A stretch of 64,000 nucleotides of DNA, taken from positions 1-64,000 of the forward strand of contig CALXUV010000020.1 in assembly GCA_944391815.1 (NCBI GenBank), given 5' to 3'. How positions within the stretch are numbered: position 1 is the first letter of the stretch; every line of letters starts with the position of its first letter. The stretch comes from an uncultured Clostridia bacterium (GTDB lineage: Bacteria; Bacillota; Clostridia; Oscillospirales; CAG-272). Shown here piece by piece: positions 27,290-33,505 of the stretch. The position numbers and the translations under genes were made by a program. Below the pieces are notes generated by a model. The model was given only the letters and a program-made list of their open reading frames with translations, ran no database searches and was not told the DNA's origin.

Positions 27290-28684
27290 TTGCAGAAAAC
27301 CAAAAATCCGGATTTTACCGAAGGACCGCTTTTCGTAAGAATTTTCATGTTTGCGATCCCTCTTATTCTAACCGGAATACTTCAGTTGCTTTACAATGCC
27401 GCAGATAATATAGTTGTCGGAAAATTTTCCGGAGATCCCAATGCTCTTGCCGCTGTCGGATGCACCGGAAGTCTCAATAACCTTATTGTAACGTTTCTGA
27501 TTTCTTTTTCAGTCGGAAGCTCAGTGGTTATTGCACAGAATTTCGGCGCAAAGAAAGAGGACGCGGTCTCCAAAGCCGTACATACCTCTATCTCGATCGC
27601 TCTTATCGGAGGAATCGTCATTTCTGTTCTCGGTTTTTTTCTGTGCGAGCGTGTCCTGATAATGATGGGGACTAATCCCGAATTACTTCCGAAAGCAAAG
27701 CTTTATACACAGATAATCTGTATCGGAATTCCTGCCAGTGCTGTTTACAATTTCGGCGCTACGGTATTCCGGGCGATCGGCGATTCAAAAACACCTTTGA
27801 TTATCCTTGCCTGTACCGGCATTGTCAATGTGGTTTTCAATCTCATCTTTGTTATTGTTTTTAATCTATCTGTCGCCGGTGTTGCCATAGCTACTATAAT
27901 CTCGCAGTATCTTTCCGCTTTTGTGGTGATTTTCCTCCTTTACAGAAGTAATGAATGTTATTGTTTCCGTTTCAGAAAACTCGGATTTTCCGTGTCTATT
28001 CTTGAAAAAATGCTGATTATCGGTATTCCTGCGGGTATTCAGGGAATTCTCTTCTCTATATCAAACGTTATCATACAGAGCGGAGTAAACACATTTCCGA
28101 TCGAAGTTATTTCCGGAAACACAATCGGTGCGACAATCGAAGGTTTTACATACATTTCAATGAACAGCTTCAGCCACGCAACCATCACTTTTGCCGGTCA
28201 GAATTTCGGTGCATTCAAATTTGACAGAGTAAAAAAAGTTCTTTTTTACGCTCTTCTTCAGGTCACCGCCGTCGGTATTTTCGTTGGTTACATGGAAATT
28301 CTTTTCGCCAGACCTCTTTCGGCACTGTTCGTCGATACAACTCAGCAAAACATACCGCTTGTAATCGACGCTGCCGCCGTCAGAATAAAAGTAATCCTCG
28401 GAACATATTTTCTCTGCGGCGTTATGGAGGTGCTTGCCGGTTATCTGCGTGCGCTCGGACGCTCCTTTACCACGATGATATGTTCCCTTACCGGTGCGTG
28501 CCTGCTAAGAATTGTATGGGTCAAATTCATCTTCGTCCTTCCTGCCTTCAATTCTCAGACCGGACTTTATATTTCATATCCCATAACATGGCTTTTCACA
28601 TGTTTGCTTCTCGCAGCTTTTGCTTTATTCACCTCAATAAAACTGTTCAGGCGTGCTAAAAAACTCAATATTCCAGAGGTTTGA
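27290..28684 (+). CDS. MATE family efflux transporter
   Basis: A 12-helix MATE exporter, 464 residues from a TTG at 27290 that has AAAGG ten bases upstream and opens with LQKTKNPDFTEGPLFVRIF, the normal family start. An ATG at 27182 also has GGAG before it and would add a basic 36-residue leader with no family match; that start is possible. Typical marks are LYNAADNIVVGKFSGDPNALAAVG and TIEGFTYISMNSFSHA. It expels cationic drugs or metabolites using Na+ or H+. A DUF4375-like gene follows immediately. Confidence 0.88.
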   Translation: MQKTKNPDFTEGPLFVRIFMFAIPLILTGILQLLYNAADNIVVGKFSGDPNALAAVGCTGSLNNLIVTFLISFSVGSSVVIAQNFGAKKEDAVSKAVHTSISIALIGGIVISVLGFFLCERVLIMMGTNPELLPKAKLYTQIICIGIPASAVYNFGATVFRAIGDSKTPLIILACTGIVNVVFNLIFVIVFNLSVAGVAIATIISQYLSAFVVIFLLYRSNECYCFRFRKLGFSVSILEKMLIIGIPAGIQGILFSISNVIIQSGVNTFPIEVISGNTIGATIEGFTYISMNSFSHATITFAGQNFGAFKFDRVKKVLFYALLQVTAVGIFVGYMEILFARPLSALFVDTTQQNIPLVIDAAAVRIKVILGTYFLCGVMEVLAGYLRALGRSFTTMICSLTGACLLRIVWVKFIFVLPAFNSQTGLYISYPITWLFTCLLLAAFALFTSIKLFRRAKKLNIPEV

Positions 28685-28685
28685 T

Positions 28686-29096
28686 ATGAATTACATTAAA
28701 CTATGGCAGGATATTTCCCGTACCGCAGAAGACGATTATTATTCTCTTCCAAAAGACAGGCAAACACTTTTCAATATTAAAAGCATAGCCGATTCGGTAA
28801 GCGGCGACGGACTTAAATCGTATTATCTGAGCTACGCGGGCGCTTTTGCGGAAGACGCCGCAAATCAGCTTTATGATATCGGTCTTGACCTTGTTGCGGC
28901 AGTTATAGAGAATGCAAATTCTCTTTTTCCGGAAGGAACTCCGCCCGAAGACGACATTGAAAGAAAAGAAATTATAGATGAATGGGACGGCGACTACGAC
29001 TACCTTTATGACGACTGGAATGAAACTATACTTCAAAACATGCCCGAGCTGGAAGCTGAAATTGACTCGCTTTTTGAAAAAATTTCAAATGAATGA
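28686..29096 (+). CDS. DUF4375/DMP19-like acidic protein
   Basis: 136 residues from the ATG at 28686, one base after the exporter stop, with CAGAGG before it. The sequence is helical and very acidic (GDYDYLYDDWNETILQNMPE), with the arrangement YYLSYAGAF...AANQLYDIGLDLVAAVIENA that resembles DUF4375 proteins. A family member, DMP19, mimics DNA. I cannot see the function. Coupling to the exporter may be only positional. Confidence 0.5.
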   Translation: MNYIKLWQDISRTAEDDYYSLPKDRQTLFNIKSIADSVSGDGLKSYYLSYAGAFAEDAANQLYDIGLDLVAAVIENANSLFPEGTPPEDDIERKEIIDEWDGDYDYLYDDWNETILQNMPELEAEIDSLFEKISNE

Positions 29097-29423: not shown

Positions 29424-30299
29424 TTATTTCTTCTGAGCTTTGCCGTCTATCTCTTCCTTTGCTTCTCTGCCCTCTCTCAAAAGTCTCACAAGCTCCGTCT
29501 TGTCTCCGTTTCTTATAGCATCTCTGTATTCGGTCAGTTTTTCTATTATGCAGTCAAGTTCAGACAACACATTTTCAGAGTTTTCAAGAAAAAGCTCGCT
29601 CCACATCTGTTCAGAAAGCCAGGCAACACGAGTAAGATCCTTATATGAACCTGCCGAAAAGCCTTTGTGTATTTTTGCCGTCGGACTTTTCACATAAGCA
29701 TTTGAAACAATATGCGCAAGCTGGGAAGTAAATGCTATTATTTCATCATGTTTTCCGGCATCCGTTACCGAAACGCTACCGATTTGCAAAGGAGACAGTA
29801 TTTCCTTTATGTTGCTCAGCAGTTCTATGTCATCGAATCTGTCGGGAACCACAACCATCGGCGCACCTTTGAAAAGTTCTGCGCTTGAATATTTGTATCC
29901 GGAAAGATGCTTTCCTGCCATCGGGTGCCCACCCGCAAACACAAAACCGTGCTTCGATGCGAGCTCAAACCCAACGCTGCATATTTCGCTTTTGACGCCG
30001 CATAAATCCATAACCAGCTTATTTTTACCGAAATATTCCGCATTGTTTTTAAGGTAATTTATTGTCAGCGAAGGATAAAGCGCAATGAAAACGACATCAC
30101 ATACGGCAAGCTTTTCCTTAGTCAGTTTGCCGCTGACCGTACCCTCAAGCTCGGCATATCCCTGTACGACGTCGTCTTTATCGTAGCCGTAAACCGTCAC
30201 GCCGCTGTACTTTCTGTACGCCTTGGCGACAGATCCTCCGATAAGCCCGAGTCCCACAACTCCGACTGTTTTGATTTTTCCAACGTCAAGGTTATTCAT
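29424..30299 (-). CDS. tyrA: Prephenate dehydrogenase
   Basis: 291 residues. NAD site VGVVGLGLIGGSVAKAYRK near 12-30, then the helical catalytic domain with FAGGHPMAGKHLSGYKYS and FTSQLAHIVSNAYV. It converts prephenate to 4-hydroxyphenylpyruvate, the precursor of tyrosine. No ACT domain is seen, so feedback may be missing in this protein, and regulation probably lies in the leader at 31297-31473. It overlaps aroF by four bases (ATGA), so the two are translationally coupled. Confidence 0.95.
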   Translation of the reverse strand: MNNLDVGKIKTVGVVGLGLIGGSVAKAYRKYSGVTVYGYDKDDVVQGYAELEGTVSGKLTKEKLAVCDVVFIALYPSLTINYLKNNAEYFGKNKLVMDLCGVKSEICSVGFELASKHGFVFAGGHPMAGKHLSGYKYSSAELFKGAPMVVVPDRFDDIELLSNIKEILSPLQIGSVSVTDAGKHDEIIAFTSQLAHIVSNAYVKSPTAKIHKGFSAGSYKDLTRVAWLSEQMWSELFLENSENVLSELDCIIEKLTEYRDAIRNGDKTELVRLLREGREAKEEIDGKAQKK

Positions 30300-31297
30300 T
30301 TCAAAGCCTCTTTCACTTTTCTCATTTTTTCTGCTATTTTGTCAAACTGCTCCGGTGTAACCGACTGCGCACCGTCACAAAGAGCGCAAGACGGGTTATT
30401 GTGCACCTCAATCATTACGCCGCTTGCTCCGCATGCTACTGCAGCCACAGCCATAGGTTCGACCAACCTTGAAATTCCGGTTGCGTGACTTGGATCCACT
30501 ATTACCGGCAGATGAGTGAGTTCTTTGAGCACCGGAACCGCTGAAAGATCAAGGACATTGCGGGTGTAACTGTCAAAACTTCTGATTCCGCGCTCGCAAA
30601 GAATTATATTATTGTTTCCGCCTGCCATTATATATTCTGCACTCATCAGTAGTTCTTTAAGAGTCGCCGCCATCCCTCTTTTCAGCAGAATCGGCTTTCC
30701 GCATCTGCCCAGCTCTTTAAGCAGTTCGAAATTCTGCATATTCCTTGCCCCGACCTGTAATATATCGACTTCTGAAAACAGATCGATGTGATTTACATTC
30801 ATTATTTCTGTAACAACCGGAAGTCCCGTCGCTTTTTTGGCTTCAAGAAGTATCCGTATTCCTTCCCCTTTCAGTCCCTGGAAATCGTACGGAGATGTTC
30901 TCGGTTTGAACGCTCCGCCTCTCAGCACGGTTGCTCCGGAATTTTTGACTTTCCTTGCTATTTCAGTCAGCTGTTCCTCGCTTTCTATCGAGCACGGACC
31001 TGCTATTACAGTAAGCGCATCACCGCCTATTTCGGTATTACCTATCTTTATCACCGTGTCGTCCGGATGAAATTTCCGGTTTGCGCTTTTAAACGGTTCG
31101 GTTATTCTTTTTACACTTTCCACCATTTCAAGACTTTCAAGAAGCTCGGCATCAACCTTGTCTGTATCCCCTATAAGCCCTATTACCGTCTGGTATTTTC
31201 CCTTTGAAACATGTACGTCAAGATTCTGCCCTTCGAGCCATTGTTTCAGACTCTCTATCTGCCTGTCAGTTACTCCCGGTTTAAGTACCGCTATCAT
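30296..31297 (-). CDS. aroF: 3-deoxy-7-phosphoheptulonate synthase (type I-beta, with N-terminal regulatory domain)
   Basis: 333 residues. Residues 1-70 form the ferredoxin-like regulatory domain (VTDRQIESLKQWLEGQ). The KDO8P-synthase-like barrel holds AGPCSIESEEQL, RGGAFKPRTSPYDFQG, QVGARNMQNFELL, LLKRGMAATLKELL and VDPSHATG. It condenses PEP with erythrose 4-phosphate, the first step of aromatic synthesis, and needs a metal ion. GGAGGATAAAAT precedes the ATG directly after the attenuator hairpin. Pairing with tyrA makes this operon specific for tyrosine supply. Confidence 0.95.
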   Translation of the reverse strand: MIAVLKPGVTDRQIESLKQWLEGQNLDVHVSKGKYQTVIGLIGDTDKVDAELLESLEMVESVKRITEPFKSANRKFHPDDTVIKIGNTEIGGDALTVIAGPCSIESEEQLTEIARKVKNSGATVLRGGAFKPRTSPYDFQGLKGEGIRILLEAKKATGLPVVTEIMNVNHIDLFSEVDILQVGARNMQNFELLKELGRCGKPILLKRGMAATLKELLMSAEYIMAGGNNNIILCERGIRSFDSYTRNVLDLSAVPVLKELTHLPVIVDPSHATGISRLVEPMAVAAVACGASGVMIEVHNNPSCALCDGAQSVTPEQFDKIAEKMRKVKEALK

Positions 31298-31312
31298 ATT
31301 TTATCCTCCGTA

Positions 31313-31346
31313 AATAAAAAATCCCACAGTGTTTTTTCACTGCGGG
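31313..31346 (-). terminator. Attenuator terminator before aroF
   Basis: In minus-strand RNA CCCGCAGUG pairs with CACUGUGGG (one G-U), loop of six A, followed by AUUUUUUAU and then the GGAGG of aroF. The stem is at 31323-31346. A second small stem (CTGAT...ATCAG) lies just before it. This is the expected terminator of a transcription attenuator. Confidence 0.75.
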
Positions 31347-31394
31347 ACTGATTTTTTTATATCAGGTCATAGCAAAAAGCACCATTACTTATTC

Positions 31395-31448
31395 TTATTT
31401 TAAGTAATAGCGGTAATAATATTCAGTTGCAAATCTAAGTGTAATCAT
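31395..31448 (-). CDS. Tyrosine-rich leader peptide of the aroF-tyrA operon
   Basis: A 17-codon reading frame, MITLRFATEYYYRYYLK, five of whose residues are tyrosine in the stretch YYYRYY. GGGAG lies seven bases before the ATG. The promoter at 31480-31508 starts transcription about 25 bases upstream. The codons TAT-TAC-TTA also form the left arm of a stem with TAAGTAAT downstream (about 31387-31394). If the ribosome stalls for tyrosyl-tRNA, that stem opens and the terminator at 31313-31346 may not form. Seen: peptide, hairpins, promoter; inferred: regulation. Confidence 0.8.
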   Translation of the reverse strand: MITLRFATEYYYRYYLK

Positions 31449-31479
31449 ATCAGTGCTCCCGAATCCTTTTTACTCTTTT

Positions 31480-31508
31480 AATATACCACTGTCAGTCGGT
31501 TTTGTCAA
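31480..31508 (-). promoter_or_regulatory. Sigma-A promoter of the attenuated aroF-tyrA operon
   Basis: On the minus strand TTGACA (31503-31508), 17 bases, TATATT (31480-31485). The -35 box overlaps the stop codon of the ABC exporter gene upstream. Transcription should start near 31473. Confidence 0.75.
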
Positions 31509-33505
31509 GTATTTTTTTCAATTCTTCTTCTGCGACCGCCAAATTCCTCAGGTGAAATTTCTCCGGCGCTCTCTATGTATCTTTTTGCCTGAGTTGAAAA
31601 GAGCTCGTAATATTTTCCCTTAGCCGCCATCAGCTCTTTATGTGTTCCGCTTTCTATCAATTGTCCGTATTCAAGCACAAGTATCTTGTCGGCAGTAGTA
31701 GCGCTTGAAAGTCTGTGGGATACGAAAATCGATGTTTTGTCCTTTCTCAGGCTGTCGAATCTGTTGAAAATCTCCTGTTCCGCCATCGGGTCAAGCGAGG
31801 CTGTCGGCTCGTCAAGTATCAATACGTCCGATGCTGAATAAAATGCACGGGCTATCGAGAGCTTCTGCCACTGTCCTATTGAAAGCTCTATTCCGTTTTC
31901 CTCAAATATCCGCATAAGCGGAGTATCATATCCGTCCGAGAATTTTTCTATAAAGCTGTCGGCGTCACTTGCATGCGCAGCATTTTTTATTTCTTCGTCC
32001 TTCATTTCTTTCAGTATGTCTCCGAAAGCAATATTTTCCTTTGCAGTTACGGCATACTTTCCGAAATCCTGGAATATTATCCCGAACATTCTGTACAGCG
32101 ACTGCACATCATATTCCCTTATATCCCTGCCGTCAAGAAGTATTTTTCCTTTGGTCGGATCGTAAAGTCTGGTCAGCAGTTTTATCAGCGTTGTTTTTCC
32201 GGCTCCGTTAAGCCCGACAAGAACTACTGTTTCACCTGGTTCTATACGGAACGAAACGTCTTTTATTACTTCTCTTTCGGTTCCGGGATAGCTGAATGAA
32301 ACGTCCTGAAATTCTATAACATGTCCCACTCCTCTTTCAACTTTTACCGGCTCGGGAAGTATGGACGTTATGGCGGTTTTGCTCTTCATAAAGACAATCA
32401 TATTGTCAATAAAAAGTGTTCCCTCGTAAATGGTTGCAGTGGTTGTAATCAGTGTTGCCACTCCGCTGGATATATGGTTCAGAGCTGATACATAGAGCGA
32501 ATAATTTCCTATCTGCTCGTTGCCGTTACATACCTGAAGAGCTATGTATACGTAAAGCGCACACTTGGCTGCCGCATTGATAAGAGTAAGTATAATATGC
32601 CAGATGCCCTCTGTAATGTAAAGTTTTCTCAGTCCCCTGTAATACTTTTTGAACGTCTGGTTATACCTGTCTATAAAAATGTCGGTAAGCGAAAACATCT
32701 TCACTTCCTTTACCATGTCTTTGTTGGTAAGGATTCCGGAATAGTAATTCATAACCCGGCGCTCTTTTGATTTTCTGCGGACATAGTTTACATTCTTTTT
32801 TCTGTAAATGAAGTTTATTATCGCAGAAGGAACCGCAAGCACAACCATAATCAGAGGAGCAACGGAGCTTACCGCTATAAGAACAACGATAAACGACACC
32901 ATACTTATAATTGTACTGAAAATATTGAACGTTGCATCAAGGATCTGTATCGGGCGTGTTCCCGCTTCACGGTTGGCATTTTCCAGTTTTTCATAAAACT
33001 CAGCCGTATCAAAGCTTGCCATATCAATCTCTTTGGTCTTGTGCATGATTTTGAGTTTGATGTGGTTTACCACAAGCTCACCGTATATCCTTTTCAGAAC
33101 GGTGTTTATATTGTTCACCAGACTTTGCAGAAATGTAAAACCGAACTGAAGGACCAGCCAGAAAACTATAGCACGGCAGGCTTCGTTTTCCAGCATAACG
33201 TTTATCTGTTCGCTCACCGTCAGACTTCCGTCTATAACGGAAAAAGACCGCATCAGCGCATTAAGTATATTTGCCGTAATGGTGGCACCCAGAACCGGCA
33301 TTACGCCGTTGAATACTGACATGAAAATCATCACAAGAAGTATCCACGGTCCTGTCTGCCATACAAGACCGAATATGTAAAACAGCCTGTGGAAAAATTC
33401 AGACAGAAGCTTTTTCAGAAAACCCGGAACCTCTTTTATGTTTTTTGGCTTTTCGGGTTCTGCATAATTAGGTTTTGGTCCGCCCCAACCGAATCCCGGT
33501 CCCAT
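31505..33505 (-). CDS. ABC exporter, fused membrane and ATPase domains
   Basis: 666 residues. A transmembrane domain with about six helices (starting near 45-65) precedes the nucleotide-binding domain: Walker A VGLNGAGKTTLIK, signature LSIGQWQKLSIARAF (Ile replaces the first Gly), Walker B VLILDEPTASLD, and the switch SHRLSS. It most likely works as a half-transporter dimer exporting lipids, peptides or drugs. Subgroup members often act as pairs, but only one gene is here. AGGAGG lies seven bases before the ATG. Confidence 0.93.
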   Translation of the reverse strand: MGPGFGWGGPKPNYAEPEKPKNIKEVPGFLKKLLSEFFHRLFYIFGLVWQTGPWILLVMIFMSVFNGVMPVLGATITANILNALMRSFSVIDGSLTVSEQINVMLENEACRAIVFWLVLQFGFTFLQSLVNNINTVLKRIYGELVVNHIKLKIMHKTKEIDMASFDTAEFYEKLENANREAGTRPIQILDATFNIFSTIISMVSFIVVLIAVSSVAPLIMVVLAVPSAIINFIYRKKNVNYVRRKSKERRVMNYYSGILTNKDMVKEVKMFSLTDIFIDRYNQTFKKYYRGLRKLYITEGIWHIILTLINAAAKCALYVYIALQVCNGNEQIGNYSLYVSALNHISSGVATLITTTATIYEGTLFIDNMIVFMKSKTAITSILPEPVKVERGVGHVIEFQDVSFSYPGTEREVIKDVSFRIEPGETVVLVGLNGAGKTTLIKLLTRLYDPTKGKILLDGRDIREYDVQSLYRMFGIIFQDFGKYAVTAKENIAFGDILKEMKDEEIKNAAHASDADSFIEKFSDGYDTPLMRIFEENGIELSIGQWQKLSIARAFYSASDVLILDEPTASLDPMAEQEIFNRFDSLRKDKTSIFVSHRLSSATTADKILVLEYGQLIESGTHKELMAAKGKYYELFSTQAKRYIESAGEISPEEFGGRRRRIEKNT

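Follow-up and report, generated by a model that had tools for sequence, protein, structure and literature searches.

Features of the aroF-tyrA leader region

The window analyzed here is a 64,000-nucleotide stretch of contig CALXUV010000020.1 from an uncultured Clostridia bacterium. On its minus strand lie two genes, aroF and tyrA. As a reading of the sequence alone had proposed, they encode a DAHP synthase and a prephenate dehydrogenase; an FXD domain was recognized at the N terminus of the DAHP synthase. Past tyrA, the first frame of any size (28653-29096) runs on the opposite strand, so aroF-tyrA looks like a two-gene operon. The same sequence-only reading had described, upstream of aroF, a TTGACA-17-TATATT promoter, a GGGAG site, a 17-residue frame with five tyrosines, a stem that takes in the final Tyr codons, and, just before the aroF ribosome site, a terminator, and all of these were located at the positions given in Table 1. 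The aromatic codons of the 17-codon leader frame, MITLRFATEYYYRYYLK, comprise five Tyr and one Phe.

Table 1. Positions of the genes, signals and predicted RNA pairings at the aroF-tyrA locus of the window
Feature	Position	Strand	Remark
Sigma-70-type promoter TTGACA-17-TATATT	31480..31508	-	11/12 matches
-35 hexamer TTGACA	31508-31503	-	spacer 17
-10 hexamer TATATT	31485-31480	-	
Ribosome-binding site GGGAG of leader frame	31456..31460	-	7 nt 5′ of ATG
Leader frame MITLRFATEYYYRYYLK, stop codon included	31395..31448	-	aromatic-rich frames also in relatives
Control codons	31404..31421	-	Tyr10-12 (31421-31413) and Tyr14-15 (31409-31404)
Region 1, 5′ arm of 1:2 stem	31401..31412	-	over last two Tyr codons
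Region 2	31371..31391	-	31391-31380 pairs with region 1
Region 2, antiterminator part	31385-31371	-	pairs with terminator apex 31341-31326
Terminator hairpin TCCCGCAGTG-AAAAAA-CACTGTGGGA	31322..31347	-	arms 31347-31338 and 31331-31322
Terminator T-run	31316..31321	-	ends six bases before aroF Shine-Dalgarno
aroF Shine-Dalgarno GGAGG	31309-31305	-	aroF ATG at 31297
aroF, DAHP synthase with N-terminal FXD domain	30296..31297	-	PDB relatives 1rzm, 4grs
tyrA, prephenate dehydrogenase	29424..30299	-	overlaps aroF end
ABC transporter gene	31505-33505	-	upstream, same strand

The 176-nt leader folds with an energy of -48.4 kcal/mol against a shuffle mean of -27.3 kcal/mol (z -5.5), a value reached by none of 200 shuffles. 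In this fold, a 12-pair codon stem joins the last Tyr codons to a stretch past the stop codon. An intrinsic terminator was found once ahead of aroF, compared with an average of 0.1 in shuffles. Taken alone, the promoter in the window showed no excess over chance, with two sites found and 1.2 on average in shuffles.

Several smaller features were also seen. The -35 hexamer shares bases with the stop codon of the ABC transporter gene. A small hairpin, CTGAT-N8-ATCAG, lies directly 5′ of the terminator at 31348-31365 and is perhaps a pause site; a similar hairpin is present in the genus relative L005, and in a second genus relative, L002, with other letters. A pairing of the leader Shine-Dalgarno stretch with the terminator 5′ arm was spotted by eye.

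Conservation of the leader frame

Relatives of aroF were drawn from the genus, in which four of seven genomes had a match, and from the best 80 of 592 confirmed matches in public genomes. With one shorter locus and one duplicate excluded, 82 loci with enough upstream DNA were counted. To pass the strict leader test, a frame had to start with ATG, have a Shine-Dalgarno-like site and contain no fewer than five aromatic residues in nine. Such a frame was found 5′ of aroF in 62 of the 82 loci (the public part being the best 80 of 592), in 27 of 4100 dinucleotide shuffles, and ahead of 2 of the 331 other genes at these loci. Of the two scoring control genes, one is a pheA preceded by a leader of the same family (L038) and the other has a frame taken as spurious (L083). 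The test fails in 20 of 82 loci, which counts against the attenuator reading. Upstream of 54 of 64 leaders lies a -35/-10 pair that scores 9 or more of 12 matches and is comparable to that of the window (mononucleotide shuffles, 133/3200).

A looser version of the test gave 66 loci, and 63 of these were used further; L045 (no terminator), L036 (poor terminator) and L065 (a near-copy of L055) were dropped. No Rfam match was obtained in the 16 loci that have no aroF leader. In one of the 16, L038, the leader sits before pheA at the head of a pheA-aroF-tyrA-aroB-aroA operon.

A typical leader reads like FAAEYYFYFYF. Most mix Tyr and Phe, and a few contain Trp (L012, L025, L037). The five Tyr codons of the window are retained in its genus relatives L002 (MLTLKNAKGYYYYYCVER) and L005 (MNDFMFVTEYYYCYYFTEKNK). 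Across loci the peptides vary widely in sequence, spacing and length; what persists is the run of aromatic residues, together with the RNA pairings. In L010, L011, L013, L076 and others, the frame, at 35 to 47 residues, extends through region 2, so that a ribosome reading to its end would itself block the antiterminator. Aromatic-rich leaders at aroF also occur in three records titled Treponema or Lentisphaerae MAGs (L035, L039, L048), reflecting either inter-phylum transfer or wrongly binned contigs.

Distribution across genomes

To survey genomes we used a covariance model composed of the control codons and region 2, which carries no gene information. In the window's own genome the element is the sole match. 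Matches were present in 24 of 391 genomes drawn from the class, 27 of 197 from the order and 9 of 398 from the phylum, the three draws overlapping and each counting the window's genome. These figures, roughly 1 in 60 to 1 in 7 genomes, count against the interpretation, and they are lower bounds because the filters were strict.

Of 59 places found with the model (the window included, and five of them, L104, L105, L108, L131 and L144, sharing leader peptides with training loci), 57 are upstream of aroF, one is upstream of pheA (L107) and one precedes a PaaK-like gene (L127). In L107, as in L038 (1778-1864), the leader stands before pheA where pheA heads the operon. The leader of L127 (G114:C158:10835-10906) reads MFLSVLFVFICLYFYFFAFLFCKSKSVLCCG, and the same genome also has a leader before aroF. 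The best NCBIfam match of the gene downstream is phenylacetate-CoA ligase, under that model's cut-off. L127 may be a case in which the switch has been taken up by another aromatic operon.

Competing pairings of region 2

A conserved stretch with the consensus AAAGTAAGAGTGATTTGTGCTGC lies 3′ of the control codons, and its 5′ part pairs back to them. In 44 sequences, 83.1% of the cells of the 12-pair codon stem are paired and 9 of the 12 pairs show double changes, counts that lean towards the stem because it was entered by hand. It was placed after the window's fold; RNAalifold found no consensus pair in alignment A2. For the codon stem and outer helix, the observed paired cells or covariation score were reached by 0 of 500 shuffles. 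Compared with slid versions of itself, the codon stem ranks top in paired cells and covariation score, but a slide of -3 exceeds it in double-changed cells (46 vs 40) and pair types (44 vs 43). A separate test of pairing between the codons and the following stretch gave p≤0.05 in 33 of 63 loci.

The sequence-only reading had been unable to pair a clear antiterminator by eye; one was found in the duplex of region 2 with the terminator apex. In 42 of 63 loci this duplex outscores 95% of shuffles, and p≤0.05 was obtained in 29 of 45 further loci. These 45 are the 59 survey loci minus 14 (the window, 3 copies of the first set and 10 in which no terminator was found by script), and they are partly dependent, L144 sharing its leader peptide with L029 and L130 being close to L040. 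In L127 the script picked a wrong terminator. Cognate pairs outrank swaps between loci, with median ranks of 0.065 vs 0.097 and with 27 cognate vs 22 swapped pairs at a rank of 0.05 or less. The letters of the helix vary by locus, for example GGTTAATTTG with CAGATTAACC in L041, AGCGTTTTCTGC with GCAGAGAACGCT in L062, and TTTGCTATG with CATAGCAAA in L010. When targets were compared in 107 loci, the apex (the top of both arms and the loop) gave p≤0.05 in 75, and 71 of these 75 duplexes involve the 5′ arm, the loop and the 3′ arm. A classical target, the terminator 5′ flank and lower 5′ arm, was also tried and scored in 9 of 107 loci, near chance. The window's own antiterminator is marginal: its duplex p of 0.055 is weaker than most and counts against the reading. 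The sequence-only reading had set conservation in relatives as one of its tests beforehand; the aromatic codons, the codon stem and the antiterminator all prove to be conserved.

Folding with ribosomes at defined positions

Transcripts were folded up to a half-made terminator 3′ arm, omitting the part under or behind the ribosome. A ribosome was taken to cover 15 nt, counted from the first base of its A-site codon, the middle aromatic codon served as the stall position, and an antiterminator was called at 4 or more expected pairs. Under these rules, the antiterminator formed in 56 of 63 loci with a stalled ribosome. Moving the ribosome to the stop codon lowered the count to 11, and leaving it out gave 16; shuffled spacers gave expectations of 18, 11.3 and 10.2, respectively. 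In the 45 further loci the counts were 42, 2 and 13, against shuffled expectations of 8.9, 6.4 and 4.9. A figure of 62 of 63, obtained if the best of several stall codons is chosen, was set aside for the single-position counts. Folding of the leader had been proposed along with the original reading, and its outcome supports that reading. With a complete terminator, the antiterminator persists in 8 of 63 loci even when the ribosome is stalled, which counts against the mechanism. The terminator, once complete, wins in most loci, and the decision would therefore have to fall during transcription.

The genus members differ in detail. In L005, with codons 9-11 or 13-18 in the A site, between 5.3 and 11.9 antiterminator pairs are expected; the value is 3.1 at codon 12 and does not exceed 0.2 at codon 19 or any later one, the stop codon included. 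In L002, at least 12.8 pairs are expected at codons 8-17 and none without a ribosome; the 6.9 pairs retained with the ribosome on the stop codon count against the mechanism. For the window, the values were 6.0 at Tyr10, 1.4 at Tyr11-12, 3.1 and 3.9 at Tyr14-15, and 0.2 without a ribosome. The 2.0 pairs at its stop codon exceed the 1.4 at Tyr11-12, which also counts against. Judged by this folding and by the duplex p value, the window's own margin is small, though the family evidence is strong.

Leader composition and operon content

The sequence-only reading had matched the Tyr codons of the leader to the products of the downstream genes. This holds in the window and its genus; across the family the control codons are Tyr and Phe, at times with Trp. 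Where the operon runs into aroB, the mean Tyr share of the aromatic residues in the leader core is 0.51 (51 loci, one at 0.8 or above). For the nine lineages in which aroF-tyrA has no aroB within reach, the mean is 0.68, with four at 0.8 or above and the other five at 0.33-0.67. The two groups differ (Mann-Whitney p 0.006, Fisher p 0.001) in a comparison of few lineages, uncorrected for kinship, with values entered by hand, the four loci of the window's genus merged as one lineage, and the 0.8 cut picked after the values had been seen. Operon class could not be assigned at first for 21 of 64 loci; L001, L002 and L005 were classified later, the class of L005 resting on an aroF split over two contigs of one genome. 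Longer downstream DNA was taken for 18 survey places, some of them picked for Tyr-rich leaders while their operons were still unknown. Among six genus pheA genes with a visible start (L094-L099), no Phe leader was seen; a seventh, L100, is a fragment.

As judged from these sequences, Tyr-dominated leaders tend to go with short aroF-tyrA operons, a pattern consistent with a sensor matched to what the operon makes. Leaders dominated by Tyr occur in the window's genus and in a few further lineages. The predicted signal should be Tyr plus Phe for the family as a whole and mainly Tyr in the window's genus.

Discussion

The element has all the sequence-level features of a ribosome-mediated attenuator. 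Its parts, their conservation and the competing pairings emerge from sequence comparison, which supports the interpretation of the aroF-tyrA leader as a tyrosine-dependent attenuator. We consider it very probable that the element is a ribosome-mediated transcription attenuator of aroF-tyrA that would respond to Tyr shortage. We infer that the frame is translated, that ribosomes stall within it, that the pairings race during transcription, and that the outcome responds to tyrosine. RNA polymerase would start at the promoter (31508-31480), and a ribosome would begin the 17-codon frame. With charged Tyr-tRNA at hand, the ribosome would get to the stop codon and cover part of region 2; alternatively, it would leave, and region 2 would fold onto the Tyr codons. 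Either way the terminator would form and aroF-tyrA would go untranscribed. When Tyr-tRNA is scarce, the ribosome would halt on the Tyr run and hide region 1, allowing region 2 to pair with the emerging apex of the terminator (the top of the 5′ arm, the loop and the top of the 3′ arm). The antiterminator would form while the 3′ arm is still being made, and polymerase would continue into aroF-tyrA.

The same mechanism could operate with a different signal, the window element sensing general aromatic starvation or Phe instead of Tyr. Most relatives mix Tyr with Phe, the window's frame contains one Phe codon, and AroR of Corynebacterium glutamicum, with its Phe-Tyr-Phe codons, answers to Phe with Tyr having no effect, according to the account in PMC11802643. 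We nonetheless regard this as rather unlikely: five of the six aromatic codons are Tyr, all five are retained by the genus relatives, tyrA ends the operon, and the Tyr share is higher in the nine aroF-tyrA lineages that have no aroB in reach.

TnaC exemplifies nascent-peptide arrest with tryptophan, and a short aromatic-rich frame ahead of an attenuator would serve equally if the aromatic peptide itself stalled the ribosome, perhaps with free tyrosine as a ligand. It is the aromatic run and the RNA pairings that are kept, however, while the peptides vary in sequence, spacing and length, and arrest of this type seems improbable. Control by a T-box, riboswitch or TRAP-type device that dispenses with a leader peptide is very improbable. 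T-boxes are common in Firmicutes, and the covariance model (RF00230) has eight matches elsewhere in the window's own genome (L086-L093, six over cut-off), which thus uses both kinds of attenuator; yet this model has no match in the window, where no Rfam family reaches threshold. On the element itself (L001), a sub-threshold match is to Thr_leader (RF00506; 29.4 bits vs a gathering score of 55), which is itself a leader-peptide attenuator, and the trpB motif (RF04312) scores 31.5 bits there and 35.5 bits on L005 vs a gathering score of 59. Finally, the ABC transporter gene, which ends at 31505, shares the strand of the element, and the hairpin might simply terminate it downstream of a chance frame. 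The promoter lies between the end of that gene and the terminator, and frame and pairings are conserved well above controls, making this explanation scarcely credible.

A tyrosine-responsive attenuator at aroF-tyrA would have both likenesses to and differences from known systems. The Enterobacteria pheA and trp leaders have an antiterminator directed at the terminator's 5′ flank and 5′ arm, whereas that of the Clostridia aroF leaders would take the apex. Control codons, a 1:2 stem, an antiterminator and a terminator are common to both (PMC11802643). Like the window's leader, AroR precedes the DAHP synthase gene aroF, and stalling raises operon transcription (PMC11802643; PMC4046766). It differs in belonging to an Actinobacterium, in having three aromatic codons and in reportedly answering to Phe, not Tyr; the work, that of Neshat et al. 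2014 as told in PMC11802643, allows a likeness to be drawn in peptide and gene. In the uORFC-13-1 motif of Acholeplasma, a candidate uORF with its promoter and ribosome site lies directly ahead of a terminator that precedes aroF (Brewer et al. 2021, PMC8632094). Its 24 sequences come from Acholeplasma and from environmental DNA, a U run supplies one or more Phe codons, and the text that describes the motif gives no Tyr run and no antiterminator (PMC8632094). Compared by description, uORFC-13-1 would be the closest published relative in kind. The sequence-only reading had remarked that Firmicutes usually use T-boxes or TRAP for such genes; the T-box remark is fair, but leader-peptide attenuators of histidine and branched-chain genes have been published in the phylum (PMC2965389, PMC9413887, PMC6123439). 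These are of the same kind and differ in amino acids, genes and leaders.

We found no report, in the open-access literature searched, of a Clostridia aroF leader family or of a Tyr leader attenuator. We know of no Tyr-specific leader-peptide attenuator outside the window's genus, which would hold one. As far as those searches show, three things are new: the family in Clostridia, the version of it in which Tyr dominates, and an antiterminator aimed at the terminator apex. A broader proposition, to which we give about an even chance, is that the leaders form a large uncatalogued Clostridia family with an apex-invading antiterminator, whose codons were retuned from Phe/Tyr to Tyr when a shikimate-pathway operon was reduced to aroF-tyrA, the window's genus being Tyr-specific.

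Our results suggest that leader-peptide attenuation of aromatic biosynthesis is widespread in Clostridia. With T-boxes in the same genome, the usual split between leader peptides in Proteobacteria and T-boxes in Firmicutes would therefore fail for this pathway. The family would represent a natural series of sensors on one scaffold, for Tyr, for Tyr plus Phe and, in some members, with Trp, through which a change of attenuator amino acid specificity becomes testable.
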